DNA from: a virus
IMG/VR virus record: IMGVR_UViG_3300020463_000142
Coordinates: 1 to 23,280 of that record
Length of the DNA stretch: 23,280 bases
Direction: 5' to 3' (one strand)
Position 1 is the stretch's first letter. Every line of letters begins with the position of its first letter. The notes under the pieces are model-generated. The model saw only the letters and a list, made by a program, of their open reading frames with translations, was not told where the DNA came from and did no database searches. Shown one piece after another: positions 3,879 to 23,280 of this stretch. The position numbers were made by a program, and so were the translations under genes.

Positions 3879-4213
3879 TAAATTCTGCCTTTGTCTTGTA
3901 CAAGTTTGTTGTACTCAACAATATAAGCATTAAGATTCTGTTGGTACAAGTCCAATATGTCAGTGTAAAAGGATTCTAAGTCTGCTATCCTTACAGGAAG
4001 GTCATAATCATCTAGCATGATTACGTCTTTTGTTTTGTCTTGGTTTTTAAGTGTGATGCAATAGTTTATTAGTTTTAAATCTATTGTAAATTGATGACCA
4101 ATTGTGAAATGAATGTTGCGTTCAAGATATTTTTCTTTCAACAATCGCAATTGATTATTGTAGACTTTCATCTTGGTTGCGTGATCCAAAGATTCTTTAA
4201 GTGATTTATCCAT
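3878..4213 (-). CDS. Small conserved phage protein, 111 residues, first gene of the second block
   Basis: This is a mostly helical, charged protein (N-terminal helix to about residue 34, a central FTIGHQFTIDLKLINY stretch, then DVIMLDDYDLPVRIADLESF and a C-terminal helix rich in Y, N and L). It resembles a small conserved protein that I recall near the tail genes of marine T4-like phages, with the same layout of an N-terminal NNQ helix, a FTI-LELIN core and an LIDD-D-P-EI-DL turn. Its function is not known to me. The chosen ATG at 4213 is supported because the similarity appears to start before the next Met (residue 15). No Shine-Dalgarno sequence is seen. A sigma70-like promoter ends about 14 nt upstream, so the mRNA leader would be only about 6-8 nt. 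Confidence 0.75.
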   Translation of the reverse strand: MDKSLKESLDHATKMKVYNNQLRLLKEKYLERNIHFTIGHQFTIDLKLINYCITLKNQDKTKDVIMLDDYDLPVRIADLESFYTDILDLYQQNLNAYIVEYNKLVQDKGRI

Positions 4214-5150: not shown

Positions 5151-6617
5151 CTAGTTATTTACCAGGCGCAATACTACCTCAACAAGTTTCGTGGATTCTT
5201 CTGAATTCGATTCTAGGGCAAAACCAATTTGTTCGCCATTTGCGTCTGTTGTTCCAAAACCGCCACCGTTTGCATATACTCTTTCGCCTTTGGAGATAGC
5301 ACCTTTTACCAAAACTGGTACTCTACCAACAAAAGCAACTGCTTGACCTTCAGCGTCTTTGTTCATTAAAAATCCTGGATTCTCAGATATTACTCCAAGC
5401 ACTGGATCACCTGCTTCAACTGATCTTGCTTCTGCATCTCCGCCAATTGATACGATTGTTCCCACTGGGTATTCTTGATCTGTTTTGTAAATCTCTGCCA
5501 AGTCAGCATAATTTGCCTGCGTTGCTCTACCACTGAAAGTGGTTGCCGCTATTGTGTTTGTTGCGTCTCTTAATGCAACTGTGTTCACCTGTGCAGTTGT
5601 GCTACCTGGATATGATGTACCACCTTGCAATATTGCTGTGGCTGTGTCTGAATTTCCTTTTAAAGATGTTGCGTGTACCTCATACCATTTGTCGGACACC
5701 GTACCTAATGTTCTGTTTCCGCTTCCTGGATTGATACCAGTTGTTACAACTTCTGCAATACTTGTTACAACGTTGTTGACATTTACTTTTAAATCTATTT
5801 TCGTTCCAACTTCATTTGCAAGTACACCTTCGTTACCATTTGCAATTGAAACTTTAAAATCATTTGAATCACCAACAGTAAAACCTGCATCTGCAAATCT
5901 TACAATTGAACTGAAATTTGTGCTACCAGATCTCAAGTAATCACTTGCTACGAAACCACCCAGTCTATCTGAGTTTGAAGCAGTTCCAAAAAATCTGTGA
6001 TCTGTTGATGTTACACCGTTAGTTGCCGCTTGAGTGTTGACTAATGTAATACCTTTTTTAATTACGTCAAAGCCTGTAATTGTGTTTGACGATTGAGTTG
6101 AGTCTATCGTAAATTCTGTTGAACTGAATGCAACCATTGTCACATTGTTTACTTTGCCTTCAATTATAAGTTGTTGAGCACCTAAAGTGTCTTGTATCTG
6201 TCTACTTGTGAATTGTGTTACTGTAGAACCTACACCTTGTGGACCCACTAAAATAAAACTAGAACCGTCCCATGCATACAATTGACTGTTAGCAGTGTCC
6301 CACCAAAAGTCACCAGTTGTTAATCCTGTCGGAGCAGTTGAACTAATCTCAGCACCACCAGTTGTTCTAAATTTAGAACCGTCATAAAACTTTAATTTTG
6401 AAGTAGAACTGTCAAACCACATTTGACCTGATACTGGTCTTGACGGTGCAGTGCCTCCAGCAAAATTTTCCAGCATATGTAAGAAGTTTTCGTTTTGAAT
6501 TTCACCATAACCTGCATAGTTTTTACCTATAAATCTTAGGTTAGTAGTGTTGTCAATAGTACCGTCTTCTACCGTTGCTATCAATGTTCCTGTAAAATTA
6601 TTAACTGTATATGCCAT
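5151..6617 (-). CDS. Tail-fibre-like protein with Peptidase_G2-like C-terminal domain
   Basis: This 488-residue protein has the same N-terminal module as the two fibre genes upstream: LRFIGKNYAGYGEIQNENF, LLENFA-type helix, P-SRPVSGQMWFD, LKFYDGSKF, GDFWWDTANSQLYAWDG and a VGPQ end (about 25-125). A middle beta part carries FFGTA and a GNRTLGTVSDKW repeat of the type that places fibre strands. From about residue 366, NYADLAEIY, GTIVSIGGDAEA, DPVLGVISENPGFLMN and GRVPVLVKG resemble the Peptidase_G2 (intramolecular chaperone) family of phage appendage proteins, in which a C-terminal domain helps trimerisation and may be cut off. I cannot see whether cleavage residues are kept. AAAGGGC serves as ribosome site. 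A role as receptor-binding fibre on the virion is inferred. Confidence 0.75.
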   Translation of the reverse strand: MAYTVNNFTGTLIATVEDGTIDNTTNLRFIGKNYAGYGEIQNENFLHMLENFAGGTAPSRPVSGQMWFDSSTSKLKFYDGSKFRTTGGAEISSTAPTGLTTGDFWWDTANSQLYAWDGSSFILVGPQGVGSTVTQFTSRQIQDTLGAQQLIIEGKVNNVTMVAFSSTEFTIDSTQSSNTITGFDVIKKGITLVNTQAATNGVTSTDHRFFGTASNSDRLGGFVASDYLRSGSTNFSSIVRFADAGFTVGDSNDFKVSIANGNEGVLANEVGTKIDLKVNVNNVVTSIAEVVTTGINPGSGNRTLGTVSDKWYEVHATSLKGNSDTATAILQGGTSYPGSTTAQVNTVALRDATNTIAATTFSGRATQANYADLAEIYKTDQEYPVGTIVSIGGDAEARSVEAGDPVLGVISENPGFLMNKDAEGQAVAFVGRVPVLVKGAISKGERVYANGGGFGTTDANGEQIGFALESNSEESTKLVEVVLRLVNN

Positions 6618-6635
6618 ATTGCCCTTTGTTTCTAA

Positions 6636-6643
6636 TATTTATC
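6636..6643 (-). promoter_or_regulatory. Candidate T4-type late promoter ahead of the 488-residue fibre gene
   Basis: Read on the minus strand the sequence is GATAAATA, seven of eight matches to the T4 late promoter box TATAAATA, 18 nt upstream of the ATG at 6617 and inside a 32-bp gap. Such boxes need no -35 element. In AT-rich DNA a match of this quality can arise by chance, so its placement just ahead of a gene is the only support. Confidence 0.3.
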
Positions 6644-6649
6644 GTTATC

Positions 6650-8863
6650 CTATGTAATTTCTCTATCAAATTCCCATGCTCCACTGTTGACACCAAATTG
6701 AAGTATCTTAGTTGTCGGAGCAAAAGTGATTGTACCAGTTACGCCTGTTGGATCACTGATATCTTCTAATACCTGTTTGTTTGCGGATCCTACCACTGGA
6801 GTTCTTTGTGCAGTACCACTTGATGCATTGTAATTACCACCTAGCAATCCACTTGATTGTGAATCATAGTTTATTGTAATTGACACATAGTTAGGTGCTT
6901 CCGCTGAAAATTCTGCTGATTGAACAGTGTAGTTTCCATCGATAGTACCTATACCACCACTGAATGTTGTATTCTGTACAACAATGGCTTGTCCTGTTTC
7001 ATAGAAATGTGCCGCACTCATTGTTAATTTTGTAGTTGCGCCTAGTGAGTTATCTTGTGCGTATGTTGTAACACTAGCAATAGTTCTTTGTGCCGCTGTA
7101 ATTGTTTGGTCAACTGGCGTGAAATTTTTGAAATTACCTAAACTTATACTAGGTATGCTAAAACCACCTGTTGTTCCGTAATCAAGTGTTCTAATTCTAG
7201 CAATAACTCCTTGTGCTCTTGCGGCTATGCTTGAATTGTAGAAAGGACTTGATGGGTTACCACTTCCTGGTGGTTGCGGACTTGTTGAGTCGTATCCACC
7301 TGCTGGAAATAATTTTTCTAGTAATACACCTACAGGAGCATAATTGTTTCCTGCGTTTGCACTTAATCCTGTAATATCTAATTGAACACCAATAACTGTG
7401 CTTCCATCTGCGTAGGCTTTTGTTGCAACGTCCTGTGCCGCTGTTGGATCTGCAACACCTGATATTTTTTTGTTCTGTACTTCTATGCTAGTTGTAGCAC
7501 TGTCTAATTTTAATGCGTTGGCATTTAAACTTGTGATTAAACCATCTGTTGGTCCAATTTTTACATTGGCAATAGTTGCTTGGTTAAGAGTTCCTATTGT
7601 AGTAAGACCTGGAGCAGAAGTAACTGTTGAACCTAAAGCGGTTTCAGTCAAAACAGAATTTGTGTTAATTTTAATTCCTTTACCTGATGCAAGATCAATA
7701 TTTTCTGAACTTGTCCAAGAATCTGTTCCATCTTTCCATACAAAAGTTTTATTACCTTGTGATGAATTTAGTATGATACCACCATCGTCTACTGCGGCAT
7801 CATTTCCTACTGTGCCGTCATCTTTTTTACCTAAATCAATATTTTTATCTTCAACTACTAAAGTTGTTACATCTATAGATGTTTGTGTTCCACTTACTAC
7901 AAGGTTACCGTCAATGTTTACATCTCCACCTACATCTAAAGTTTTGCTTGGTGACGCTTTAAAAATACCTACTCTAGCATTTGTGGCATCAATTTTTATT
8001 GCAGAAGTTTCAGCAGGTCTTCTAACTTTAACTTCTACGTCTTGTCCTGTTAATTGATTTGCTACTGTGAACGCATTGTTTGTGAATTCTAATTTTGTGT
8101 TGTTGTTAAGTCCTACCGTCAATCCACCATTGTTTTGGATTGTTATTGCACCTGTTGTTGTGTCATCACTGTCCGCTGTAAGATACTGATCACCAGTTCT
8201 TACTATGCCAGCACCATCTTTTAATGCTTCCGATACAGTAGATGTTCCAACAAATTTGTAATCAGTTCCTACTGTGTTAAAACCTTTTGTAATTGCACCA
8301 GTTGTATTTGAACTTGTTACTAGTTCAGTGATTTGAGCACCTGCCGCCGGAGTAAACGAAGCGTTACTGTGTACGCCTACTAGGCTACCGCCTACGAACA
8401 TTTTCACAACATAGTTTGTAATACTTTGTGTATCTAACACACTAACAACTGTGAAGCCTGAAGTTCCTGATTGTCTTGAATAAGTTGGACCAGCAAGTCT
8501 TAAATTTGTTCCATCAAAGAAATATAATTGACTTGCATTGCTGTCAATCCAAAGATCACCAGCAACCATGTTAGGTTGTGTGGCTTGAACAGTAACACCA
8601 CCACTTGCCGTAAATGCCGTTCCGTTGTATACTTTTAATCTATTTTCTGTTGTGTCGAACCATAACTGACCTCTTGTAGGATTAGTTGGTGCGGCACTGT
8701 TTGCAAAATTTTCTAATAGTTGAATGAAGTTTTCATTTAATACTTCACCAAATCCTGAATAGTTTCTTCCAATAAGTGTTAAGTCACTAGATGTTGTATC
8801 CAATTGACCATCTACTAGGTCAACAAGTAAACTGCCATCTGTTTTGTTCAACTTATAACTCAT
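6650..8863 (-). CDS. Tail-fibre-like protein, 737 residues, with a distinct C-terminus
   Basis: The N-terminal module matches its neighbours: LTLIGRNYSGFGEVLNENF, LLENFAN, GQLWFDT, LKVYNG, GDLWIDSNASQLYFFDG and an LAGPTY end. At about 307-325 the phrase KTLDVGGDVNIDGNLVVSG and then VVEDKNIDLGKKDDG, DDGGIILN and FVWKDGTDSW form a beta module often seen in phage fibres. ISGVADPTAAQDVATKAYAD (about 467-486) is the hinge motif common before C-terminal domains. The remaining 250 residues include a PQPPGSGNPSSP linker and a beta-rich end (EFDREIT) that I do not recognise. The ATG shares a base with the upstream TAA (TAATG), and GGAGG gives a strong ribosome site. It probably forms a trimeric virion fibre whose end contacts a receptor; this is inferred. 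Confidence 0.75.
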   Translation of the reverse strand: MSYKLNKTDGSLLVDLVDGQLDTTSSDLTLIGRNYSGFGEVLNENFIQLLENFANSAAPTNPTRGQLWFDTTENRLKVYNGTAFTASGGVTVQATQPNMVAGDLWIDSNASQLYFFDGTNLRLAGPTYSRQSGTSGFTVVSVLDTQSITNYVVKMFVGGSLVGVHSNASFTPAAGAQITELVTSSNTTGAITKGFNTVGTDYKFVGTSTVSEALKDGAGIVRTGDQYLTADSDDTTTGAITIQNNGGLTVGLNNNTKLEFTNNAFTVANQLTGQDVEVKVRRPAETSAIKIDATNARVGIFKASPSKTLDVGGDVNIDGNLVVSGTQTSIDVTTLVVEDKNIDLGKKDDGTVGNDAAVDDGGIILNSSQGNKTFVWKDGTDSWTSSENIDLASGKGIKINTNSVLTETALGSTVTSAPGLTTIGTLNQATIANVKIGPTDGLITSLNANALKLDSATTSIEVQNKKISGVADPTAAQDVATKAYADGSTVIGVQLDITGLSANAGNNYAPVGVLLEKLFPAGGYDSTSPQPPGSGNPSSPFYNSSIAARAQGVIARIRTLDYGTTGGFSIPSISLGNFKNFTPVDQTITAAQRTIASVTTYAQDNSLGATTKLTMSAAHFYETGQAIVVQNTTFSGGIGTIDGNYTVQSAEFSAEAPNYVSITINYDSQSSGLLGGNYNASSGTAQRTPVVGSANKQVLEDISDPTGVTGTITFAPTTKILQFGVNSGAWEFDREIT

Positions 8864-10878
8864 TAAATTCCTCCACTGTATATGATGTAATTAAGTGTTA
8901 AGTACGGGTTCATCACATCAAATAGTTGTCCCGTTGTGCCTGCTAATCCACCTGTGTTAGGTAATTGTTGTGCGCCGGCTGTGTTGTTTAAATCTGGACC
9001 ACTTCTAGTTGTTACTTCTGCATCACCTGATGCTCCTGCAATCATTCTAGATGCAAAGAACTGATCTCCATTGTTTGCTTGAAGATTGTGTTCGTGTTGT
9101 GGTAAATTTTCTTTTGTAATTGTTTTCTTTTCTGCACCAGCACCTTGTCCTAGGTTATCAGCAAATACTGCCGTTGTTCTATCTGCAGAACCTTGTCCCA
9201 TGTTGTCTTTACCTAATGGGAATCTTCCACGCAAGTCCGGAGTTTTAAATACTGCCGATGTGCTTGGCGTTCCAAATTGAGTACCTATGACTCCAAACAG
9301 TTTGTTGTATGTTGCTCTGCTTATTTCTGCACCATCACACATTAACCAATCTGTAGGAGCAGTTGCACCTGCATAAATCATAATTGATCCTATTGGTGGT
9401 GTAGGTATTGTGTTTACTATAGAACCAACAGTAGTTTTAAATATACCTGTTGTTCCTGATGTTCTGTTTATTATCAATTCGTCTGATACAGAACTTGTTG
9501 TTGTTAAAGTTTGATTTCCTATGAAAGAATTGCTTATAGATGTAGCAAAAGTTTTAGATGTTCCACCTGTTTGTCCATCAAAACTGAATGATGTTGCTGT
9601 AACATCTCCAGTCATATTAAATGTTGATGCTGTTGTTAATTTGTTTGCCTGACCGGCTGTGCCAGATACTGTTCCACTTACATTTCCAGTTACATTTCCT
9701 ACAAAATTATTTGCGTATACATTATTGTATTGGTTGTTCGTAGCACCAATGCTGTATGTGTTGTTAGCCTGTGGTAAAATATTGTTTGCTGTAACATCTC
9801 CTGCGATATTTGTAGCGTCACCAACATAAAGTTTTTTGGCTATGCCTACTCCACCTTTTGCAATTATTGAACCTGAACTTACATTCGTTGCGTCAGTTGT
9901 GCTATCGGATTGTATAGAGCCACTTGATAAAATATTACCTGTTACGTCTAATGCTTGAGTTGGATTAGTTTTGTTTACACCAACTTGTCCTTGCGAACTT
10001 ACTCTTAATACTGTTGTTGTTTGACCTTGATTGTTTAATCTGAAATCTATTTCTTCATCTAATGTACTTAATTGGAATATACCTGCTTGATTCTCAACGA
10101 ACATTTTGAAAGAACCTGCCGCTCCAACTTCTACACCGTCATCTGTTTTTACTTTAATTGGAAAATTTGTTAAACTTGTTGTATCTGATCTTAAAAAGTT
10201 TCCTGCCGCGATAGTTGAAGTACCAACAACAAGGTTTTCTGCCTTTTGTGCCGTACCATAAAATTTTCCTACACCGTCACCAGTTATATTCGCAACACTT
10301 AAATTTAATCCTGGATATAAAGTTGAAAATCCTGCTATGTTACTTTTAGGTGTAAACTGATCAGAAGCAATGATTGCCACTGTCTTCGCTGAAACTTCTA
10401 GTTTTACAATACTGTAATTTAAATCATCTGTGCCAGTAACCACAACAGGACTTGCGCCTGTTGTTAGTCCTGAACTATATTGTGGACCTATAAGTACCCA
10501 ACCTGTTCCTGTGAACAAGTAAAGTTGTTGTGCATTTGTATCAACCCAAAGGTCACCTGTGACGCTTTCTGAAGCACTAGGTTGATTGATTGCTTTTTTA
10601 AGTCCACCTGACGCTACCCAATTGGTACCATCATACACTTTCAATTGATCTGTTCCTGCTGTTGTATCGAACCAAAGTTGTCCTTCAACAGGTCTCGATG
10701 GGGCAGTGCTATTTGCAAAATTTTCTAAAAGATGTAGAAAATTTTCTGCAATTATTGTACCATATGATGTTGTATTTTTTCCTGGCAGTCTTAAAGTAGT
10801 TTCATTATTAATAGTATTGTCATTAATAGTGATAGTACCCTTGTTTACTGCGTCGGAAAAATTAATGGTATATGCCAT
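8863..10878 (-). CDS. Tail fibre with C-terminal tail-collar (MdpB-type) domain
   Basis: This 671-residue protein starts with the shared fibre module (LRLPGKNTTSYGTIIAENF, LLENFANSTAPSRPVEGQLW, LKVYDG, GDLWVDTNAQQLYLFTG, LIGPQY). The middle has repeats (VNKTNPTQALDVTGNI, then NTYSIGATNNQYNNVYANNF). From about residue 489 comes a tail-collar domain as in T4 gp12 and MdpB proteins: PPIGSIMIYAGATAPTDWLM, C514-D-G, TPDLRGRFPLGKDN, LPQHEHNL and an NPYLTLNYIIYSGGI end. H595-E-H597 fits the HxH metal site that, in T4 gp12 and gp37, lets three chains bind a metal ion on the fibre axis. A trimeric receptor-contacting fibre is therefore likely. GAAGGG precedes the ATG, and the gap to the gene upstream is 3 bp. 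Confidence 0.85.
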   Translation of the reverse strand: MAYTINFSDAVNKGTITINDNTINNETTLRLPGKNTTSYGTIIAENFLHLLENFANSTAPSRPVEGQLWFDTTAGTDQLKVYDGTNWVASGGLKKAINQPSASESVTGDLWVDTNAQQLYLFTGTGWVLIGPQYSSGLTTGASPVVVTGTDDLNYSIVKLEVSAKTVAIIASDQFTPKSNIAGFSTLYPGLNLSVANITGDGVGKFYGTAQKAENLVVGTSTIAAGNFLRSDTTSLTNFPIKVKTDDGVEVGAAGSFKMFVENQAGIFQLSTLDEEIDFRLNNQGQTTTVLRVSSQGQVGVNKTNPTQALDVTGNILSSGSIQSDSTTDATNVSSGSIIAKGGVGIAKKLYVGDATNIAGDVTANNILPQANNTYSIGATNNQYNNVYANNFVGNVTGNVSGTVSGTAGQANKLTTASTFNMTGDVTATSFSFDGQTGGTSKTFATSISNSFIGNQTLTTTSSVSDELIINRTSGTTGIFKTTVGSIVNTIPTPPIGSIMIYAGATAPTDWLMCDGAEISRATYNKLFGVIGTQFGTPSTSAVFKTPDLRGRFPLGKDNMGQGSADRTTAVFADNLGQGAGAEKKTITKENLPQHEHNLQANNGDQFFASRMIAGASGDAEVTTRSGPDLNNTAGAQQLPNTGGLAGTTGQLFDVMNPYLTLNYIIYSGGI

Positions 10879-11514: not shown

Positions 11515-11522
11515 TATTTATT
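11515..11522 (-). promoter_or_regulatory. Candidate T4-type late promoter at the end of the giant gene
   Basis: Minus-strand AATAAATA matches the T4 late box TATAAATA at seven of eight positions, 21 nt upstream of the ATG at 11493. It overlaps the TAA stop of the giant gene, so part of the match is imposed by the coding sequence. It is similar in sequence and distance to the box before the 488-residue fibre gene, which is the main reason to list it. Confidence 0.3.
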
Positions 11523-14500
11523 GCGGCAATGCCACTTCTTTTTGACGTATGAATCTTGCGATGTCATTATTCGTCTGACTCAGTGCTTTTGCCGTATCAT
11601 GCCAAATTTTCCCTTGTTTCCTTATAACCGCAATTTTGGCAGTTGCGGATGGTGTTGTTGTAAATGTTATCACAGGATTAACACCATCTACTGTGAATTC
11701 TGCTTGAACAGTGGTATCTGCCTCTGGACTGTCTTGTCCATTTGCTGGGTCATATACACTAATACTGTTCTTACGTAATCTCTTACCACCTACAAATATC
11801 TCAAATTCATTTGCCGATTTAGGTGTAAATGATATGGTTAGTTGATTATTTGAAACATTTGCTCCAGTATAATTTTCAGTTAAAAACTCATCTTTGTATG
11901 GAACGTTCTGATGTCTACTTTGATCGAACACCTGTGTTGATGCTGTATGTTTAGTAGGAATACCTGTGCCAAATGTTCCTCTTCTAAGTTGTTTAATTGT
12001 GTGTCCTTGTTTCTGATAGTATTCTATTCTTTCACCATCTATAAACAATATACCTGGCAATCTTGCACCAATGCTAGGATCTGTTAAACCTGTTCCGTCT
12101 GTAAGCACAATTTCTCTATCGCTCCAGTTTAAATCTTGTGCTAGATAATACTGCTTGTCATCTCCAACACGTTTGAAGTGAGACCTGTTAAGCATATCTT
12201 TAAATTGTCTGTATGCAAATTTACCTATGAAACTAGGAGCAGAGAAGTGTATAACATCTATCTCATCGTTCTGCGATAAATTTCTATTGATTAATAATCT
12301 ATTCTGATCATTCGAAACTGTGTAGTCAACACTTGGAGCCAACCATTCTCCGTTTACACATACCCAAACATATTGAGCATCAGTAGCCGGTCTTCTTAAT
12401 TGTATCACTCCATTAGTTAATTGATTGTATGTGAAATAATCTTCAGTATTGACAGTAATACTCTGTCTTGCTATTACATCAAACTGTTCACGCTCTATAT
12501 CTTGTATATCATGTTTACTAAATTGATATGCTGTAATAGTTTTTCCATTTGTTGGAGCAGGAGATATTGTTAATACTCCAGTGTTACTTACTGAGTACTC
12601 TCCGTTTTCGATATAAACTTCTAACACATCTCCGATAGCACCAACGCCTGATTCTAAAGTAACACTGCTGTTACCAGGATTCCATCTGTATTGTGCCGCA
12701 GTCAATTCTGTTTTGTTTAAGAAGGCTCTTACATTTGTTGCTAATATAGTTCCAGGTAAAACCTGCCAAGTTTTAAATTGATATTCTCTGATCAGGTTTC
12801 CACCTGTAGCAGTTAAGGTGTGTTGTTTTGTAAATCCGCTTCTTAACACATCGTTATCAACTTTTACAATTACATTGTTTGTAAATGGTTGTTGTGTAAA
12901 TGGTGTAGGCGATAAAGTAAATGCTGTTGTACTTCCATCAGCAGTAAAACTGTTTTGTGTTACTTCACTGAAAGATTGACTTGCACTCTCATACACGCAG
13001 ATATTAATCACTGCATCTTGTGTCGGAGCAGATGTAAATCTAACCGCAACTTTTCCTGATCTTGAATATGTGCTGTCAGTTTCGAATACTGTGTGAGTTT
13101 GATCTACGCCGTTTACTTTTACTAAAGTACTGATGCTGTTTGCTTTAAATTTACCTCTTGTTACAAATTCTGTTGTGCTTCCGTCGCCAGTAAATATATC
13201 TACATCTAAAATAGATTCACCACTGTTGCCCATTGTGATAAAGTTAATTTTAGCACCATTCGTCGGTGCACTATTGAATACTAAATTTTTATTTTGATAA
13301 TCCACTGCATATAAATTGTTATTAAACAAAATATTATCTACAGAAACAAATACAGCATTGTTACTTTGTGGGAAGTCTACGAAAGAATATGTTGTTGTAG
13401 CACCATCACCTATGTAATTGTAACTGTTAATTTTACTTCCTGTGAATGCACCTCTGTCATATACTTGGATATCTAATGTGTCTAACACTTGTCCTGGAAC
13501 AAATTCTTCTGGTCCATGACTTGATGTAGGAGTAACAAATCCGTCTCCATCTATGTTTATATCTTCTGCATTTAATCCAGTAGCAGTTGAGTAAGCAAGA
13601 TCACCACCTTTTACTAATGAATCCACTGCGTCAGGATCAGGTAAGAAACTTCCATCACTTGTAGATTTTCTTACAATGATGATGTCATCACTGCCTGTTT
13701 CAATTGCACTTACATCTACAGTTTTTGTGCTACCGTCACCTTCTAGTGATCTCATCACAGCATTTGTATTTGTAACTGGATTTCCTGTTCCAAAGTTAGG
13801 ATCATCCATTCTAACTAATTTCCAATCCCACTTGTTATTTGTTAATGCTCTAAATCTTCTGTACACATGATATTGTACACCAGACTCTAATGCTTTAGAT
13901 AAGTTTATAGATTGTGTACTTCCATCAAGGTAGAATATTTCATCTTCGTAAGTTGTGTCATACGTGTCCCATTCTCCTGAACCATAACCTGCATTGTCCC
14001 AGCCTGATACATCCTCGAAAGTTATACTTCTTACTTCTACTCCACCGTAATCTATTCCATCAATTACCTGTGCAAGTTCTTTGCCTGGCTGACCATCAGT
14101 TGGTGCATAATATAAATTAACTCTGTCTTGCGTATGTAAAACATCTTGATCAATCAAATATGTTATTGATATTGTAGATAAATTTGTAGGTGGTGAAGTG
14201 AACTGTACATAGCCAGTTTTCCTTGAATATGTTTTTGTTGTATCGTTTTCGTTATTGAAAATAAACGCACTTCTTAATTGTCCAACTCCTGCAACTGATA
14301 TAGTTACTGAATTTGATCTTAAATCCATTGGCCATTTTAATTTAAATTTAAGTTGCGAAGCATTTCCCGTAAATGTTTCTGTTCTTGATAAATTTGCTAA
14401 CAATAATGTTCCTGTTGTTCTATCAAACTTAACGCCTAGATGAGTTGATCTTGTTACTCCTTTTCCTAAGACTGAACTTGCAGTGGCATATGTTCCTGTT

Positions 14501-17500
14501 GTGTTGCCAGATAGGGTTACAGTTGGAGTAGATATGTAACCACTGCCCTCTGTATCAACTCTTATTCTTGTTACTTTACCATTTTTAATGAATGCTGTTG
14601 CTGTCGCTCCAGATCCTCCACCACCAGTAATTGTTACTTTTGGAGCATTGACGTAATCTGTTCCTGCTGTTGCAACATTTATTTCTGTAATGGAATAACC
14701 AACATTGTCTAACCAATGCTTATCTGGATAAGTTGTGATAGAGTTTGTAGTTAGTGATGTTCCACTTACCCTGATGTTACTTGATTGTATGTAACCATCT
14801 AGGTATCTTGGTGGATAATCAAAGTCTGCTATACTTGTATTTGTAGGTTCTGTTTTTTGATAAGCACTTACATACTCTCTAATTTTAGATTTGTATGGTT
14901 TTACTTCTGCAATATAATCTTCAAAGTTTGCAAGATTGTCATTTCTGAATGAACGTTTTTGCTGTAACTCGCCAACATTGTGTTTTGCTTTTATGAAACT
15001 TGTTTTAAAGATCCAGTCATTTAATTTTTCTTCACTTAAAGCATATCTAATACTTGCAAAGAATAATTTATTATATTCAATGTCTAATTCTTCAACAAAG
15101 ATTTTATCTCTCAATGTTTGTAAAATTAATCTTGTTTCCTCAATTGGCTGTCTGTCATACAATTGAACGTCAAAACTATTGCTGTCGTAACCGATATTTG
15201 TATTTGCATAGTCATACAATCTACTGTTAAATTGTATTGTGCCATTTTGTCTACCCACAGTTTTGTAATTTACAGTATAGTCTACCCCGACTTGGCTGTC
15301 TATTTTTTCTAATAACAACCAACCACCAGTACCAATTGTACTAATTTTTACAATATCGCCTACACTATTTTGTAAAGCATCTAATTGATAACTGTAATCT
15401 ACTTTTTGATCTATTGCTGTAAATTGCGTATATCCAGTAGCATACCAATCTGCATAACCCCAATACAATGAAGTATTGTAACTTTGTATTCGTGATCTAT
15501 TCCATTTGTCAGTTGCAGTCCAGTTGTATATTGACCACTTGCCATCAACTAGACTATCTGCTGTAACTAAAGCACTAAAGTTTCTTACTGTGATTGTTGT
15601 TTTAGAATCATAATTTTTTCCTTGCTTTTCAACTTTGACAGCAGTAACCTGTCCTTTTGCATTAATTGTTAATTTGAATACCGCATCTGATCCATTAGTG
15701 GATTTAATTTTGTATGTAGGAGCGACCTTATAGCCTGAACCTGGATTTGTAATAGATACATTTGTTATTTTTCCATCTAAAACTGTAGGCACAAGAGTTG
15801 CTGTAACTAACGGACCTGTTCCTAAGAATTGTAAATCTGCTTCTGTATCAACAGTGCTATCGTATAAGCCTGATTGTGCCACTGGTGCAGGTTCGCTTGA
15901 TGTTAAAGTTGATAAATCTACTTCATCTACGATTAAATTTTTAATTAAAACATCATTGGCTCTAATAATTAATTGTTTTGTTGCTTCAGCATTGTTTTTA
16001 AACCAACTTTGTCTTGGAGTAGTCAATGTTCCATATTTTGCTTTGTCGCTTAATTCTGGATCTGGTACTTGATTCATTTGTTCGTCATATCCAATTAAAC
16101 TGTTGAACCATACATTTTCTATATCTTTAGGTAATGTGCTTGTACCTAAATTTTCAGATACAAGAGCATATTCATTGTGTACGTTTCCTTTAGATTCTGT
16201 GTTAAACAATCTAAAGTTTAGAATAGTATCACTGCCATTTATTAATGTATCACAGTTTACAAGAGCAAATCTATTTGGTCCAAATATTGTCACATATTTG
16301 TAACCTTGTGCTCTTGGATCTTTAATTAAATTTTGCACTGCTTCAGCAGTCATGCCTCTGCCCTCTAATTCAGGAACAGTCTTTTTACCTTTTACCCAAT
16401 AGTAGTAAACATTTTTCATTGTGCCTGCAACAGAATCATATTTTCTACGAGTTACAAAATTTGTTGCGTCAGCAACAGTACCAGTTACTCCTAAACCTGC
16501 ACCTTGAGTAGTTGCAGATAGAGTGTTCCACTCTGTAGGCGTTCTAGTTGATTCTGTCCATTCGTGTACATCGATTGTTGCACCTGGAAATAGTTTATTC
16601 CAATAAGCATTATTGAAGATTACATTGCTTTGATAAGGATAATAGTATACTGCCGTGCTTAGATCCCACCAAAGTCTGCCAACTTGCGTATCAGTCCAAC
16701 TGTTTGTTACGTCTACTGTGCCAGACGCTCCTGTGTTGTTGTACACAGCCGGATCATAAAGTGTTTTATAAAATAGTTCTGCTTCTGCAGGTCCAGGTAT
16801 CTTACCATACAAAGGATCGATGTAATCTAGATTCGCTAATTTTTTATTTGTTACTTTGTCATACAAGAAGATACTTTTAATTTTTGTTAAATCTATTTGA
16901 TCTATACCAGTAGTCATCTCATGAATGCTAGTCCAATTATTTTCTGTTGGAGATTTTCTAAAATTAATTACTGTTCCTTTTTGCTGATTTGTTAATTGCA
17001 ATGTTGGTAACCCAATGTAAACGTGATTATTGTTTATAGTTAAGTTAGAGCCAAATTGTTGTAAACTGTCATTTGCGTAATTAAATTTTTCACCATACAA
17101 CATTGTGTTTTCAAATTTTTGATAGATATGAACAGCACCGCTGTCAGTAAATGTTTTTGTGAATGTAGTCATTTGGTCGTCAAAAGATGTAGTGCCGTTA
17201 TCCAATGTCGTTGGAACTTGCATATCGCCTTTAAGACTTGTTACTGCCAACACACTACCACTAAATGCAAGACTATGTCCAAAGTTTTCAGATACTTCTT
17301 TATCTGGACTTGTTAATGTTTGATTGTAACTGTAAACACCTGTATCGTCAGTTGCTTTTTTGTAAACATAAACAGCACCCATATCTATACTATTGAAATC
17401 TTTTAATGGACTTCCGACAGCAATTAATGTGCCATCTCCACTGATGCTTATATCAGAACCAAAATTTATCATAGCCGCAGAATCATTCGGTGGCACAATA

Positions 17501-20500
17501 GTTTGTTTGTAAGTGTAATGCCCGTTGTCCAATCTATACACAACAACTTTTTGATTGTCGTTGTTATAAAGTATGTTTGCGATAATGTTTACGCCGTTAT
17601 CATCAACATCGAACCTATCTGCAAAACGAACTAATCCGTTTTGTGCTAAAGTACTGTCTTGCTCTAGTTCTATACCTGAATCATTTGGAATATATCCTAA
17701 CATATCTGTTCTTGTGCCTTGTAAAGTCCAATATACAGGATTCCATGCACCAGGAGTTAAGTTTGTGTTTGCTTTGTAAAGTTGATTTGCATAAACAACT
17801 AGTTCGCCAGTAACATAATTTGCTGTGTCATCATACGTACCAGTGTATAATGGATCAGTTCCTAGTGTCCAATTTTTGTTTGCATTGTATTCCACAAAAT
17901 AAATTTTACCAGGATTGTTCGTTGCTAAATTTCCACTTGCTCCTATGAACGCAACAGTCTTATCACCTACTGTTCTAACTTTAATTCTAGAACCTAGTTT
18001 CAAATTTGCTTTTGTATCTGGAACTGTATATGCACTATTGTATGAATAATTTCCTGTACCATCTTTTTTGTAAATTAAGAACGCACCTTCATTGGTTAAG
18101 CCACTTGCAGTACCTTCTCCTATCGGTATATTGAAAATTTTATTCCAATCATAGTTGGTAGAACTTGGCGTGTTTGCACTTGCAGATATTCCGTCTAGTG
18201 TTTGTTCGTCCCACAGCCAATATTCTTTGTCATTAGCAAAATACTCTGTAGCATTTCCTGAAATAGTAATCGCAGATGTGTTCGTAAACACTAATAGTTT
18301 ACCTGCACCATTAAGTCCTGCCATATTTGTTTGTTCAATGTTACCAAGTGTTCTGTTTGGACTTCCTATTCTTGTAATTGTTCCATTTACACCTGCATTT
18401 GAACCTAATGTAAATGTTCCTGTTGAATTTTTGATCCAAACTCTTAATTTGTTTAATGCTGTAAATTGTGTCAACACAACTGTTGCTGTGTTTAATGTAA
18501 CATCATCTCTTACAGTGTCGCCTACACCAGGGAAATAAAAATTATTATTGGAATCACTCTGCGAATCAACATCTATGTAACCGTCCATTACTTCAGCAAC
18601 AGTTTTAAGTCCATTTGTGTCTGTGCTTGTGATATTGATACCTGTAAAATCGAACTTGTTTGTGCCAACAGTGTTGAACCAAACGTTTATCGTATCATTT
18701 TGACTTTTAGTAAACGTTGGTGTAGTACGCACATACCAATTGTTGTTTAATATTCCTGTAGGTGAACCACGTGATACCCATTGGTTAGTACTAGAATCTA
18801 TGTAGTATGATTCATAATAAGTTAAAACTCCAAACTGTGATTGATACATTGGAGTTTGTGGCGTAATTGCTTGTATTGTTTCGTCTATGCTGTTAACAAA
18901 TTTATTTGTGTTCCTCGTTACACCTTGTCTTTTAATATCTTGTATTACTAAATGATTAGAAGTGTCTATACCTGCACTTGTAGAGATGGTTGCATTTATA
19001 TCTACCATCCAAAAACCGCTTAGGTATGAATAATCTTCAACAAGGACTCTATTGTAAGTACCTACTTCAAGTGCACCATACATTAATGTACCTGATGCAG
19101 TTACAACACCTTCAACATCTTTTAAGTAAAGTAAAGTTTTTGTTCCTTCTTTTCTTTTGTAAACAACTGTACCTTCAAAACTAGTTGAATTTACAACAGC
19201 CGTCAGTATTGGATCTACTAAAGTTAGATCAACTTTTAAAATAGCATCAACTTTTTGTACAATCGGCACTTCCGTTGCACTGAAAAGATTAGTTTTAATA
19301 GTTGGGTCACCAACTCCTGCAAAAGGTTTTTGTGTAGCCTTGGTTAAATTGCTTCTGTCTATTGGATAATCACTGCTAAAACCTAAGTATTGCATTATTA
19401 ATCTATCACCAATTTTAGTTCCTTGGTATTGATCTCTACTTGCTCTTATTAGTAAGTGCGTTGTAGTCACATTAGAAAATATATGATCTCCTATTATTAT
19501 GTTAGACGTAGAAGTTTGTGTGCTTTCTCTGTATAATCCAGCACCATCGAACGTTGTAAAGTCCACGGATGGATCTTGACCTGTAATTTGATTCGTGGCT
19601 CTCCATAATTGGTTTTTATATTGAACTATATTGTTGACATTATAGTTTGTACTTGAACTGAACACACCTTTGTATTCCGTTTTAAGGTTGCCGGCTGTAG
19701 GTGCACCAATAACAACAAAGTTTCCGTCTGGACTGATGTCAACTGCTGAACCAAAACTACTGCTAGAGCCAAATAAATCTAAACTTGTTAGCAACGGATC
19801 TTGTGTAGGTGCTTCTATCTTTTGTGAAAATCTTAAATTACCACTTTCAGTGCCTCTAACAAATACATAGATTGCTCCATCACTGTCAGTTGGTTGACTT
19901 ACAAGAACAACAGTATTATTTTTATTTGTTGCAATTACTTGTCCAAAACTTTCATCACCTGAAACAGAGGTTGTGCTGATTTCGTTTTGCGTTTTGTAAA
20001 CAAATTTGTTGTTAACAACTTTCCATTTACCATCATCACTTGCTTCTATCCAGAATTTTTCGTTGTCCCTTATGCCTGACGTGTTTACTCTATTATTAAT
20101 TGCGTCTGTGCTTGTAAATTTCGCACTTATAAATCTGCTTATGTAACCTGTTGCCGTAGATAATTGTTGGAATCCTGTTTTAGGCTCGCACACAATTTTT
20201 GAAGGTTCAACACTTGTACATTTAAAAGTGTAATTTGTTCCATTTGCATACACAACGAATATTTCGCCTACTGTCATTTCAGGTGTGTTCAATGTGTCAA
20301 CTTCTATTGTGTTGTTTACTACATTAATTGCTTGTATTCTTTGTGTCGTTTTAGAATATCTAAAAACATTCCAAGTCGAATTGTAATCTCCAACCCAAAC
20401 ATAATTGTTGTCTACTATATTTGTAATATCCGCCGTCAATAAATCTGCGTATTTGCCAACTGTTAAACTAATATCAACAGGATTGACTGGTCCTGCTGTT

Positions 20501-23280
20501 TTAACATATGTATTTTTGTTATACTTTGTTGGGAAAGGTGAATGTGTATATGCATCTGGTTTCAAATACACTTGTCCTGATTGTATTCTGTATGTTAAGT
20601 CGCTTTCTGTTGTAGGCAAATTATCTGTAAGTTCGATCGGTTGTGGATTTAATCTTACTTTAGATTCGTCTAGTTTAAATTCAACTTCATCGAATACAGC
20701 ACTTGCGCCATATTGTCCTTTGCGTACTGCCCATTCTTCGTAAAAGTCTATGCTTTCTTTATCTGCACTTGATAGAGCATCAAAAATTTTAGATAATGAA
20801 TTCTCTGTTCCCTTTTCTCTTACAAATCCTTGATAAAATTTGTATTGTGCAACATCGTCATTAATAATATTTTTCAAATACGTTCTTGGCTGGTATCCAA
20901 TTAAATGTTGAGCCATTCTTTGTTGTTCAGTGTCAAAGTTGTCTGTATCTAAATCATAAAAATCACCAAATTGATTAGTTCTGTAGTCAAAGTTAGATAT
21001 TAATGTATCACTAGGAGCACCATCTAGCCTTGTCCAATCAGCGTCTACAAATGCAGAAGTGCCTTTTAATTTTGTATTTGCAGTATAATAGAACTGTTTG
21101 TATTTTACTACGTCACTCATTGAGTAATCAGTGAATTGCGTCCATTCTTTAATGTTTGCGACACTGAATACAAAGCCTGGAATGGATTGACTTCCGTCCC
21201 ACTCTGTCAAATATCCTAATACTTTTAATCTATCTTGCTTGTAACCACTTGCTGGATCATATATCAAGTCACTAAATGATGTTTGGTTGTCAATTAAACA
21301 CACTTGTTCTTTTTGTACAAGAGGTACTTTTGCAAAGTAAATTCCGTTTACAGTATTTTTCGTAAGTAAACTAAAATTATTTGCTTGTCTTACAATTCTT
21401 AAAAAATTGCGATCTAATTTGTTTCCGTCTTCTTTTAAGATGCCATATGAGTAAAAATTGTCTATAACATTGTCAGCAACACTGTAACTGGATTTAACAG
21501 TCAATTTTCTTGATGCTGGACTTAAACTTATTACACTACCTTTATCCCATTTTTGAGTTGTCCAGAATAAAAATTCTTTTGCACTCAATTGCCAGTTGGC
21601 AACCACTTCTAAATCTTTGCTAAACTCATTGAAGTCAAAACCTTGATCAGTTAAATATTCTCCATAACCAAGTATAATATCTAAAACTTCTTGTTTAGTT
21701 CTTACTATTGTGCCGTATGGGATTTCTTCTACCGTCGATTTGTCAAATCTTCGTCTTATTATTCCTTCTGCGCCGCCTTCAACAGGCAATTCAACTAATT
21801 TAACAAATTTTGTTAAGTCAAATGTTTCTGTTGATAAGTGTGCTGTCTCGGTTGCATAAAATTGATCATTGTATTTTACATATTGTCCAACATCATAACG
21901 ATTGTTTTCTCCCCAATTTACAAATGAAGAACTTATTCCACCAACGTTTATAACTGGATCATTGGCTTGCTCTATAAAAGAATAGTATTTTACTTGTGGA
22001 GCATTTTTGTCATATCCTCTGATGATGTATCCTGCCGCAGTAAGTTCAACTATCAATGCACTATAAGATAGCATCTTTATAGGAGCACTTGTATTTTGTA
22101 TCAGCCTATAATTTTCTTGTGGTACAAAGACAGATGTTGACGTGTTAGGTGTCTTACTGTCCAATATCAATTGGAATTTGTCTTTTTTACTGTACCCTTT
22201 TATTTTAAAACCTATTTGTGCAACAATACTTTTTAAATTTGTTTTGTATTCAGCATAATCAGTAAGTAAATTTGTTTCTACATATTCATACAAATAGTTT
22301 ACAAGACCTGCGGTGTTTACCACAGTAGTTTCGCTGATGCTACTTGGAAAAATTAAACTTTTAGTTTGTATTGGTAATTCATTTGAGTACACAATTTGAT
22401 CAGCAGTATTTCTACTAATTCTTGATGTGTCCCAACCAACTCCAATCACCTTAGAAGGTTGATGCAATATAAATGCTTTTAGTAATGAGAAAGGATAATC
22501 TGAACTACGTCTCCAAGCAGATTCAACCGGACTCTCGTCGCCAAATTTAAAATTATTTTTTCCTAAAGTTGGATCAACTTGTCTTGCATATGCACTGTCA
22601 AAAGGACTTCTAATATTTCCATCGCTGTCTGCTGGAATGTACCCTGTCAGTCCTGGTCTTGCATAGTTTTCTTTCCTTACAATTTTTTTGTTAGGCTCTC
22701 TTACAATACCTTCTTCTAAGTCTTTCCACAATACTAAATTGTCTTTGGTGTACGGGGCAGGTCCATAAGTTGTTTCCCACCATGTTGGCTCTATGGTGTA
22801 TCCTAACATCTCCCATGGAGTAATGTTAGGTCTATCAGTGTCATATAATTTTTTGTATATTGCTCTCCAGAAACCGTTTAATTGTACACCTTGTGGACTT
22901 ACAGCATGACTGTAATTCCAAGTTCTGCTATCGCCAATCAAATAATATGAATTAGTTGTATAGTCCGTATTTCCAACAAAACCTAGCCACTCGTTGAAAT
23001 CTGGCAACACACTATTGTTAATTGTGGTGCTAGTAAAAAGATTGGTTCTATTAGTGCCAGGTAATAAATCCTTGTAATTCAATATGTTTTCGTCATAGGT
23101 AACTTTAATATTATTGAAGATACGTTTTTCTAGGTCTAAAATTAAGTCATCTCTGAAGTCGTTGTATGCAACAGTAATACTTCCATCGTGCCCTTGTATG
23201 ACGTTCACAGGCGTTACTAATGTTGTATCTGAATACTTCATAGGTCTATATGAAGGATACAATCCTAATTTTGTAGGAGT
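11518..23280 (-). CDS. Giant multidomain virion structural protein (5' end outside the window)
   Basis: The frame is open to the right edge (3920 codons visible, with TPTKLG before the TTG at 23262), so that TTG is unlikely to be the start. Near the edge, INV-GHDGS and RDDLILDLEKRIFNNIKV recall a conserved large virion protein of marine T4-like phages. Residue 1 below is the TTG. Contents: a W/Y-rich N-terminal part (PWEMLGY, YGPAPYT, about 150-175); four chitin-binding-like repeats (about 450, 707, 1200 and 1803); seven FG-GAP-like repeats between 1106 and 2100; GSGY beta repeats (about 2497-2560 and 2855-2918); a helical segment FIKAKHNVGELQQ to AEVKPYKSKIREYVS (about 2705-2810); DGST repeats (about 3170-3480); an IDGERIEYY and RG--GT motif (about 3735-3770); end FIRQKEVALPQ. 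It is probably part of the tail or baseplate; surface glycan binding is inferred. Confidence 0.9.
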   Translation of the reverse strand, partial: TPTKLGLYPSYRPMKYSDTTLVTPVNVIQGHDGSITVAYNDFRDDLILDLEKRIFNNIKVTYDENILNYKDLLPGTNRTNLFTSTTINNSVLPDFNEWLGFVGNTDYTTNSYYLIGDSRTWNYSHAVSPQGVQLNGFWRAIYKKLYDTDRPNITPWEMLGYTIEPTWWETTYGPAPYTKDNLVLWKDLEEGIVREPNKKIVRKENYARPGLTGYIPADSDGNIRSPFDSAYARQVDPTLGKNNFKFGDESPVESAWRRSSDYPFSLLKAFILHQPSKVIGVGWDTSRISRNTADQIVYSNELPIQTKSLIFPSSISETTVVNTAGLVNYLYEYVETNLLTDYAEYKTNLKSIVAQIGFKIKGYSKKDKFQLILDSKTPNTSTSVFVPQENYRLIQNTSAPIKMLSYSALIVELTAAGYIIRGYDKNAPQVKYYSFIEQANDPVINVGGISSSFVNWGENNRYDVGQYVKYNDQFYATETAHLSTETFDLTKFVKLVELPVEGGAEGIIRRRFDKSTVEEIPYGTIVRTKQEVLDIILGYGEYLTDQGFDFNEFSKDLEVVANWQLSAKEFLFWTTQKWDKGSVISLSPASRKLTVKSSYSVADNVIDNFYSYGILKEDGNKLDRNFLRIVRQANNFSLLTKNTVNGIYFAKVPLVQKEQVCLIDNQTSFSDLIYDPASGYKQDRLKVLGYLTEWDGSQSIPGFVFSVANIKEWTQFTDYSMSDVVKYKQFYYTANTKLKGTSAFVDADWTRLDGAPSDTLISNFDYRTNQFGDFYDLDTDNFDTEQQRMAQHLIGYQPRTYLKNIINDDVAQYKFYQGFVREKGTENSLSKIFDALSSADKESIDFYEEWAVRKGQYGASAVFDEVEFKLDESKVRLNPQPIELTDNLPTTESDLTYRIQSGQVYLKPDAYTHSPFPTKYNKNTYVKTAGPVNPVDISLTVGKYADLLTADITNIVDNNYVWVGDYNSTWNVFRYSKTTQRIQAINVVNNTIEVDTLNTPEMTVGEIFVVYANGTNYTFKCTSVEPSKIVCEPKTGFQQLSTATGYISRFISAKFTSTDAINNRVNTSGIRDNEKFWIEASDDGKWKVVNNKFVYKTQNEISTTSVSGDESFGQVIATNKNNTVVLVSQPTDSDGAIYVFVRGTESGNLRFSQKIEAPTQDPLLTSLDLFGSSSSFGSAVDISPDGNFVVIGAPTAGNLKTEYKGVFSSSTNYNVNNIVQYKNQLWRATNQITGQDPSVDFTTFDGAGLYRESTQTSTSNIIIGDHIFSNVTTTHLLIRASRDQYQGTKIGDRLIMQYLGFSSDYPIDRSNLTKATQKPFAGVGDPTIKTNLFSATEVPIVQKVDAILKVDLTLVDPILTAVVNSTSFEGTVVYKRKEGTKTLLYLKDVEGVVTASGTLMYGALEVGTYNRVLVEDYSYLSGFWMVDINATISTSAGIDTSNHLVIQDIKRQGVTRNTNKFVNSIDETIQAITPQTPMYQSQFGVLTYYESYYIDSSTNQWVSRGSPTGILNNNWYVRTTPTFTKSQNDTINVWFNTVGTNKFDFTGINITSTDTNGLKTVAEVMDGYIDVDSQSDSNNNFYFPGVGDTVRDDVTLNTATVVLTQFTALNKLRVWIKNSTGTFTLGSNAGVNGTITRIGSPNRTLGNIEQTNMAGLNGAGKLLVFTNTSAITISGNATEYFANDKEYWLWDEQTLDGISASANTPSSTNYDWNKIFNIPIGEGTASGLTNEGAFLIYKKDGTGNYSYNSAYTVPDTKANLKLGSRIKVRTVGDKTVAFIGASGNLATNNPGKIYFVEYNANKNWTLGTDPLYTGTYDDTANYVTGELVVYANQLYKANTNLTPGAWNPVYWTLQGTRTDMLGYIPNDSGIELEQDSTLAQNGLVRFADRFDVDDNGVNIIANILYNNDNQKVVVYRLDNGHYTYKQTIVPPNDSAAMINFGSDISISGDGTLIAVGSPLKDFNSIDMGAVYVYKKATDDTGVYSYNQTLTSPDKEVSENFGHSLAFSGSVLAVTSLKGDMQVPTTLDNGTTSFDDQMTTFTKTFTDSGAVHIYQKFENTMLYGEKFNYANDSLQQFGSNLTINNNHVYIGLPTLQLTNQQKGTVINFRKSPTENNWTSIHEMTTGIDQIDLTKIKSIFLYDKVTNKKLANLDYIDPLYGKIPGPAEAELFYKTLYDPAVYNNTGASGTVDVTNSWTDTQVGRLWWDLSTAVYYYPYQSNVIFNNAYWNKLFPGATIDVHEWTESTRTPTEWNTLSATTQGAGLGVTGTVADATNFVTRRKYDSVAGTMKNVYYYWVKGKKTVPELEGRGMTAEAVQNLIKDPRAQGYKYVTIFGPNRFALVNCDTLINGSDTILNFRLFNTESKGNVHNEYALVSENLGTSTLPKDIENVWFNSLIGYDEQMNQVPDPELSDKAKYGTLTTPRQSWFKNNAEATKQLIIRANDVLIKNLIVDEVDLSTLTSSEPAPVAQSGLYDSTVDTEADLQFLGTGPLVTATLVPTVLDGKITNVSITNPGSGYKVAPTYKIKSTNGSDAVFKLTINAKGQVTAVKVEKQGKNYDSKTTITVRNFSALVTADSLVDGKWSIYNWTATDKWNRSRIQSYNTSLYWGYADWYATGYTQFTAIDQKVDYSYQLDALQNSVGDIVKISTIGTGGWLLLEKIDSQVGVDYTVNYKTVGRQNGTIQFNSRLYDYANTNIGYDSNSFDVQLYDRQPIEETRLILQTLRDKIFVEELDIEYNKLFFASIRYALSEEKLNDWIFKTSFIKAKHNVGELQQKRSFRNDNLANFEDYIAEVKPYKSKIREYVSAYQKTEPTNTSIADFDYPPRYLDGYIQSSNIRVSGTSLTTNSITTYPDKHWLDNVGYSITEINVATAGTDYVNAPKVTITGGGGSGATATAFIKNGKVTRIRVDTEGSGYISTPTVTLSGNTTGTYATASSVLGKGVTRSTHLGVKFDRTTGTLLLANLSRTETFTGNASQLKFKLKWPMDLRSNSVTISVAGVGQLRSAFIFNNENDTTKTYSRKTGYVQFTSPPTNLSTISITYLIDQDVLHTQDRVNLYYAPTDGQPGKELAQVIDGIDYGGVEVRSITFEDVSGWDNAGYGSGEWDTYDTTYEDEIFYLDGSTQSINLSKALESGVQYHVYRRFRALTNNKWDWKLVRMDDPNFGTGNPVTNTNAVMRSLEGDGSTKTVDVSAIETGSDDIIIVRKSTSDGSFLPDPDAVDSLVKGGDLAYSTATGLNAEDINIDGDGFVTPTSSHGPEEFVPGQVLDTLDIQVYDRGAFTGSKINSYNYIGDGATTTYSFVDFPQSNNAVFVSVDNILFNNNLYAVDYQNKNLVFNSAPTNGAKINFITMGNSGESILDVDIFTGDGSTTEFVTRGKFKANSISTLVKVNGVDQTHTVFETDSTYSRSGKVAVRFTSAPTQDAVINICVYESASQSFSEVTQNSFTADGSTTAFTLSPTPFTQQPFTNNVIVKVDNDVLRSGFTKQHTLTATGGNLIREYQFKTWQVLPGTILATNVRAFLNKTELTAAQYRWNPGNSSVTLESGVGAIGDVLEVYIENGEYSVSNTGVLTISPAPTNGKTITAYQFSKHDIQDIEREQFDVIARQSITVNTEDYFTYNQLTNGVIQLRRPATDAQYVWVCVNGEWLAPSVDYTVSNDQNRLLINRNLSQNDEIDVIHFSAPSFIGKFAYRQFKDMLNRSHFKRVGDDKQYYLAQDLNWSDREIVLTDGTGLTDPSIGARLPGILFIDGERIEYYQKQGHTIKQLRRGTFGTGIPTKHTASTQVFDQSRHQNVPYKDEFLTENYTGANVSNNQLTISFTPKSANEFEIFVGGKRLRKNSISVYDPANGQDSPEADTTVQAEFTVDGVNPVITFTTTPSATAKIAVIRKQGKIWHDTAKALSQTNNDIARFIRQKEVALPQ
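17725..17850 (-). other. Chitin-binding-like (CBM5/12-like) repeat 4, between propeller repeats 3 and 4
   Basis: The encoded segment reads YTGTYDDTANYVTGELVVYA, then NQLYKANTNLTPGAWNP and a YWTLQG end. It is the copy closest to the CBM5/12 pattern, with Y, V-Y, LYKA and the closing W all present. It lies between the third and fourth FG-GAP-like repeats. Confidence 0.5.
19545..19665 (-). other. Chitin-binding-like (CBM5/12-like) repeat 3, inside propeller repeat 2
   Basis: The encoded segment reads FSSSTNYNVNNIVQYKNQLW, then RATNQITGQDPS and a FTTFDG end. The closing tryptophan is replaced by phenylalanine. The copy starts a few residues after the IGAP strand of the second FG-GAP repeat and opens the long insert there. 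Confidence 0.45.
21025..21144 (-). other. Chitin-binding-like (CBM5/12-like) repeat 2 in the giant gene
   Basis: The encoded segment reads WTQFTDYSMSDVVKYKQFYY, then TANTKLKG and a DWTRLDG end. It follows the same aromatic pattern as repeat 1, with the closing tryptophan present. Sugar binding is inferred from the pattern only. Confidence 0.45.
21790..21915 (-). other. Chitin-binding-like (CBM5/12-like) repeat 1 in the giant gene
   Basis: The encoded segment reads WGENNRYDVGQYVKYNDQFY followed by ATETAH and a KFVKL end. It fits the W/Y--Y--G--V-Y---Y-A pattern of small aromatic carbohydrate-binding modules. Three more copies with the same frame follow in the same gene at about 21144, 19665 and 17850. 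Confidence 0.45.

Follow-up and report, generated by a model that had tools for sequence, protein, structure and literature searches.

The window analyzed here is a 23,280-base virus fragment from IMG/VR (record IMGVR_UViG_3300020463_000142). It carries a minus-strand open reading frame (ORF; 23280-11518, 3920 codons) whose N-terminus lies off the contig and which encodes part of a giant baseplate-associated structural protein; residue numbers throughout refer to the part of the ORF within the fragment. Between two conserved flanks, this protein has a slot that holds a seven-bladed beta-propeller. The baseplate protein carries this propeller as an optional insertion; a CBM5/12-like module is inserted in the second blade of the propeller, and this module is in turn split by a further domain. 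We favor, with some reserve, the reading that the region is an exchangeable and probably host-recognizing baseplate module that was built by successive insertion.

A seven-bladed propeller with a split module in its second blade

To describe the fold of the region, we modeled residues 965-2150 (1186 residues) with AlphaFold2 and 64 homologues. The model has a mean predicted local distance difference test (pLDDT) score of 88.6 and contains seven blades of four strands each (Table 1); the closed ring of sheets that it predicts is firmly that of a seven-bladed beta-propeller. Pfam FG-GAP_2 (PF14312) matched the ORF with an E-value of 2e-16 and 60.2 bits against a curated cut-off of 23, which was also passed by 15 of the 17 orthologous slots scanned (the exceptions were L064 and L079). 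The FG-GAP motif is clear in blades 1, 5, and 7, and in blade 2 as far as a break, and it is degenerate in blades 3 and 4. A first-pass annotation of the window had described seven FG-GAP repeats. The seven blades are borne out by the model but seven clean motifs are not, and because the signatures are degenerate in blades 3 and 4, the count rests on the model and the homologues. The integrin-like fold that had also been proposed agrees with a structural search of the PDB, in which the best matches were integrin alphaM, alphaX, and alphaL (Z 27.3-29.2, 354-362 residues aligned, 3.2-3.5 Å). These alignments span model residues 129-1155, that is, both sides of the insert.

Blade 2 is broken between strands B and C. 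VVIGAP occupies residues 1189-1194 and GAFLIYKK residues 1732-1739, leaving a gap of 537 residues; blade 5 is uninterrupted, with IAVGSP at 1953, GAVYVYKK at 1968, and YSYN at 1983. The first-pass annotation, which had the second repeat stop at IGAP and resume about 535 residues later and the fifth repeat run on without a break, was accurate on both counts. Its picture of one large domain budding from a blade needs amendment: a domain does leave blade 2, but not straight from the blade, and the interruption is composite. Two halves of a CBM5/12-like module flank a lineage-specific insert of only ~465 residues, which is made of two homologous halves and enters this module in the blade-2 B-C loop.

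Pfam CBM5/12 matched the whole ORF over three stretches with 26.8 bits (cut-off 26.2). Orthologues without the insert (“short forms”) hold a whole CBM5/12-like module in blade 2; L070, for instance, reads ...YKGALDPLEEYSQGDIVSSKGVLWEALRTVTVESSTINLESQDWKRV..., and a profile of the short-form modules aligned with the family's intact second module (hhalign probability 98.3, E = 1.4e-14). In the “long forms”, the half containing LWxA precedes the insert and the half containing DWxxV comes after it. A hidden Markov model (HMM) built from the insert-less blade-2 modules only was then run on the 49 long forms. It recognized the left half ahead of the insert in 47 (E<1e-3) and, at a lenient E<10, the right half directly behind it in 36, and it matched the interior of the insert in none. 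In the structural model, strands 1 to 3 of the split module (1203, 1218, and 1224) are spaced as in the intact module (1812, 1827, and 1833), and strand 4 follows ~470 residues late. The insertion point is between the third and fourth strands of the module.

The interruption was also examined in relatives. We fetched 80 orthologues from IMG/VR by means of an N-flank profile and compared the slots of 75. Slot length between the conserved anchors was bimodal, with 496-752 residues in 21 loci and 1095-1418 in the rest (window, ~1117). In alignment A2, residues ~1235-1699 were present in 49/49 long forms and essentially nothing of them was present in 15/15 short forms, which align with the window to the left and right of this stretch, propeller included. 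Six short forms display one gap of 464-466 residues that runs from 1234/1235 to 1698/1699. The alignment of homologues, a check suggested by the first-pass annotation, therefore came out in favor of a propeller with an optional insert, and the structure prediction, made of the region with the insert in place, gave a propeller.

Probable assembly and exchange in a jumbo-phage baseplate protein

The window ORF belongs to PHROG 10938 (virion structural protein), and homology extends over both flanks of the slot. Relatives that extend farther upstream have ~985 additional N-terminal residues and a full length of ~4904 amino acids. Searches of the flanks with tblastn against cultured phages gave jumbo-type phages only, including PA5oct and its kin, Atu_ph07, Phosso, SCTP-2, Vibrio phage 2.275.O, RaK2, 121Q, and CBB. 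An annotated gp6-like baseplate wedge is the neighbor of the orthologue in PA5oct, Atu_ph07, Phosso, and 121Q. This adjacency is known from the cultured orthologues; the window ends inside the ORF, before the wedge position. The PA5oct orthologue, which is 31% identical to the window ORF over residues 1-885, is annotated as detected by electrospray ionization tandem mass spectrometry (ESI-MS/MS), so the earlier designation of a virion protein is upheld, if indirectly. A CBM5/12-like module near residue 455 of the N-side flank matches the chitin-binding domain of chitinase A1, and no match to gp7 was obtained when the conserved flanks were searched against the PDB.

No propeller was found by Pfam or profile in the cultured outgroup orthologues, whose slots range from 110 to about 1500 residues; only 9 residues separate the two slot flanks in PA5oct (modest scores). 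The giant protein of RaK2, 121Q, PA5oct, and Atu_ph07 is like that of the window in its flanks but differs in that its slot holds no detectable propeller. The blade-2 CBM5/12-like module is also absent from L089, L092, L064, and L094. In a tree of the N-flank, the propeller-bearing group was separate from the cultured outgroups, and forms with a bare propeller or with the CBM only were early-branching. The order of nesting, from the outside in, is baseplate protein, propeller, CBM, insert.

With outgroups in the tree, a nine-member short clade is nested in the long forms and the insert needs two changes; without outgroups, the long forms make up one side of a branch (support 78) and the insert needs one. 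Two changes would mean two gains or one gain and one loss. A single gain of the insert is possible and compatible with the tree, a gain plus a loss being the alternative. CBM-like modules also occur in other propeller loops of relatives, and E1_FCCH-like modules in some, which shows that modules of different kinds generally settle in the propeller. L071 and L047 have a domain at the identical site between blades 1 and 2, and the L071 copy matches Pfam E1_FCCH (E = 7.5e-9).

The slot diverges faster than the core: identity is 26-37% in the slot regions, compared with 53% in the N anchor. The DNA identity of L002 to the window is 78-84% before residue 900, 89-98% over residues 901-2100, and 75-89% from there to residue 3000. 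Judged from these alignments, the slot is fast-evolving and lies within an apparent recombination tract. A second tract with ~90-100% DNA identity to L002 (window 11521-14280, minus strand) suggests further recombination.

The duplicated insert and the role of the region

The two halves of the insert are homologous (hhalign probability 97.9, E = 4.7e-13), and by this profile alignment the insert is an internal duplication. Comparison of the halves with the remaining ORF gave no third copy. Modeled alone, the insert is mostly beta and has a pLDDT of 92.3 and a predicted template modeling (pTM) score of 0.88. There was no convincing match to it among PDB sequences, Pfam, and PHROGs, no tblastn match of an insert in 50,697 phage records, and no match of the insert model to the PDB at E<=1e-3. 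Structural matches to tetanus HC, eIF2-gamma, and EF-Tu were read as generic beta likeness. The insert belongs to a domain family without a name and with no clear relative in Pfam, PHROGs, or the PDB. A relative with 35% identity is located on L101 (1-8625), a single contig from a profile search of genome contigs that is binned in a Euryarchaeota metagenome-assembled genome (SAT205) and has an open frame across the whole stretch. L101 is probably a misbinned virus contig; the alternative is a host link.

A role as an exchangeable baseplate adhesin, with predicted binding, is likely. The baseplate gene neighborhood of the orthologues, the optional presence, the faster divergence of the slot, the L002 identity tract, and the CBM-like modules all argue for an exchangeable adhesion module. 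The computations show that a giant structural protein, encoded next to the gp6-like wedge, contains a variable slot, which in this marine lineage is occupied by a seven-bladed FG-GAP_2 propeller. In many members a CBM5/12-like module sits in the B-C loop of blade 2, and in most members sampled the duplicated domain of ~465 residues lies between strands three and four of that module. The propeller may form a rigid hub at the edge of the baseplate, from whose 2-3/4-1 loop face the insert and the CBM modules would project to meet glycans or proteins of the host envelope, in the manner of integrin alphaI, and related phages may swap the module through homologous recombination across the conserved flanks.

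Several observations weigh against this proposal. G-beta, ribosomal (RACK1-type), and other seven-bladed propellers matched the model with Z 27-28 over ~305 residues; the seven-bladed fold is therefore firm, and the integrin likeness is the best but not exclusive. The CBM5/12 match is weak for the blade-2 copy alone, and the full propeller model, with a pTM of 0.69, does not reliably show where the insert lies with respect to the blades. The recombination tract is known from one lineage, and the second tract covers residues 3001-3920. The insert is no hypervariable tip, since its divergence (0.31) is similar to that of the blades (0.31-0.37). Its sole fold resemblances are weak beta-barrel matches, including one to a T4-like baseplate chain, and these would fit a structural role.

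Such a role is the main rival explanation: the propeller and insert would be load-bearing or spacing elements of an enlarged wedge and would not bind the host directly. In cultured relatives the gene has the gp6-like wedge as its neighbor; a homologue of the insert gave a weak score to gp7 domain V, and the BFVD list for the insert includes a gp7b model. Among the VIA matches of the insert, a 1031-residue baseplate chain of a T4-like phage ranks first (Z 7.9, 87 residues), and others are the phi92 endosialidase (Z 7.6) and aIF2-gamma barrels (Z about 7). However, VIA matches of Z 7.9 and below lie within the tool's stated background. Moreover, functional jumbo phages with a protein of this family do without the whole propeller, and many relatives do without the insert. 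A working baseplate thus requires neither of them, and we regard reinforcement as unlikely.

Another possibility is that the propeller and insert attach one of the tail fiber or collar proteins encoded downstream (window 5151-10878) and make no host contact of their own. Beta-propellers frequently serve as protein-protein hubs, and tail proteins with Collar and Peptidase_G2 domains are encoded directly downstream; on the other hand, the presence of CBM5/12-like modules in more than one loop speaks for glycans and not for proteins, and this arrangement appears quite improbable. Finally, nothing was found in favor of an artifact of assembly or annotation as the source of the long spacing, or of two separate domains that mimic one interrupted repeat. 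Either is scarcely conceivable, as the 49 long-form rows come from separate contigs with the same open frame and edges, insert-less homologues exist, and the model closes the seven-blade ring across the insert.

The region shares with integrins alphaM, alphaX, and alphaL a seven-bladed FG-GAP-type propeller and an extra domain near blade 2/blade 3 that is optional among members. The 2-3 and 4-1 loops of a propeller lie on one face, so the phage insert and integrin alphaI leave the same side. The integrin alphaI domain is a vWA domain with a metal ion-dependent adhesion site (MIDAS) between blades 2 and 3 (alphaI is described in PMC3192720). In contrast, the phage domain is duplicated and beta-rich and sits inside a CBM in the blade-2 B-C loop, with no DxSxS (MIDAS) in residues 1236-1702 and no vWA family match for the insert. 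Identity is about 14%, and there is no strict DxDxDG calcium loop within residues 1101-2125. The published definition of an integrin-type propeller comprises the FG-GAP motif and DxDxDG calcium loops in blades 4/5-7 (PMC3192720). With degenerate motifs in blades 3 and 4 and no strict DxDxDG, the phage propeller is not an integrin-type domain by this definition, and the resemblance is convergence, not membership. That phages independently evolved an alphaI-integrin-like adhesin, in which a seven-bladed FG-GAP propeller on the baseplate holds out an optional predicted ligand-binding domain at the upper side of blade 2, nested stepwise down to a duplicated domain of a hitherto undescribed family and exchanged by recombination, is possible but doubtful.

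The blade-2 module resembles CBM5/12 (chitin-binding type 3) by its Pfam match and differs in being split by 465 residues; sugar binding is putative. FG-GAP_2 repeats also occur in a protein of the Sinorhizobium phage Phosso (XYS97267), a jumbo phage of the same wider group, although that protein stands alone and is not an insertion in a baseplate protein. XYS97267 (L020, 4863-10414) has at least 15 FG-GAP_2 repeats (E = 2.6e-133 over 1850 residues scanned).

Neighboring features and implications

Table 1. Features of the giant ORF (all on the minus strand of the window).
Feature	Residues	Window position	Strand	Blade strands in model	Basis or remark
Giant baseplate-associated structural protein ORF		11518..23280	-		3920 codons in window
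Conserved N-side host protein	1-1104	19969..23280	-		PHROG 10938 virion structural protein; one CBM5/12-like module near 455-495
Propeller region with all its insertions	1105-2122	16915..19968	-		No match in propeller-less jumbo-phage orthologues
Blade 1	1112-1160	19801..19947	-	1115-1156	AlphaFold2 model
Blade 2, strands A+B (FGSAVDI...VVIGAP)	1176-1202	19675..19755	-	1179-1193	Motif and model
CBM5/12-like module, first half (three strands), blade-2 B-C loop	1203-1234	19579..19674	-		Pfam, alignment, model, HMM
Lineage-specific insert	1235-1699	18184..19578	-		Alignment A2, long and short forms
Insert, first homologous half	1245-1470	18871..19548	-		hhalign
Insert, second homologous half	1471-1698	18187..18870	-		hhalign
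CBM5/12-like module, second half (..DWNKIFNIP..)	1700-1724	18109..18183	-		Alignment, HMM
Blade 2, strands C+D (GAFLIYKK, YSYN)	1725-1757	18010..18108	-	1732-1752	Motif and model
Blade 3	1758-1806	17863..18009	-	1762-1806	AlphaFold2 model
Second, intact CBM5/12-like module after blade 3	1807-1860	17701..17862	-		Pfam, model, hhalign
Blade 4	1881-1934	17479..17640	-	1883-1928	AlphaFold2 model
Blade 5	1935-1995	17296..17478	-	1944-1989	Pfam and model; cleanest FG-GAP repeat
Blade 6	1996-2070	17071..17295	-	2000-2065	AlphaFold2 model
Blade 7	2071-2122	16915..17070	-	2079-2121	AlphaFold2 model
Conserved C-side host protein	2123-3920	11521..16914	-		Homology to jumbo-phage orthologues

Within this tail protein, residues 2813-2935 (window 14476-14844, minus strand) match PHROG 460 (head closure Hc2; E = 5.8e-17), and the slots of Atu_ph07 and Phosso contain similar segments. 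Directly downstream (5151-10878, minus strand), three consecutive tail proteins have a similar N-terminal segment, GRNY.G.GE..NENF..LLENFA....P..P..GQ.WFD. They diverge after it, with Peptidase_G2 in one and a Collar domain in another. Two pairs of neighboring ORFs at 82-1663 and 2261-3878 (minus strand) are apparent diverged copies; they are glycosyltransferase-like, with DGD and DVD/DTD motifs, and gave no Pfam match.

Full-text literature searches returned no report of FG-GAP or a propeller for jumbo-phage baseplates, and a 2021 overview of jumbo phages (PMC7824862) does not mention propeller, FG-GAP, or integrin. It is rare that the stages of a nested insertion coexist in relatives, here as no propeller, a bare propeller, a propeller with a CBM, and a CBM split by a duplicated domain, and their coexistence allows the order of assembly to be read. 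These data point to a probable receptor-binding slot for widespread uncultured marine jumbo phages, together with a nameless domain family. If the favored reading is true, virus tails can evolve the integrin arrangement, in which a propeller serves as the hub for a ligand-binding domain that is inserted in some members only.

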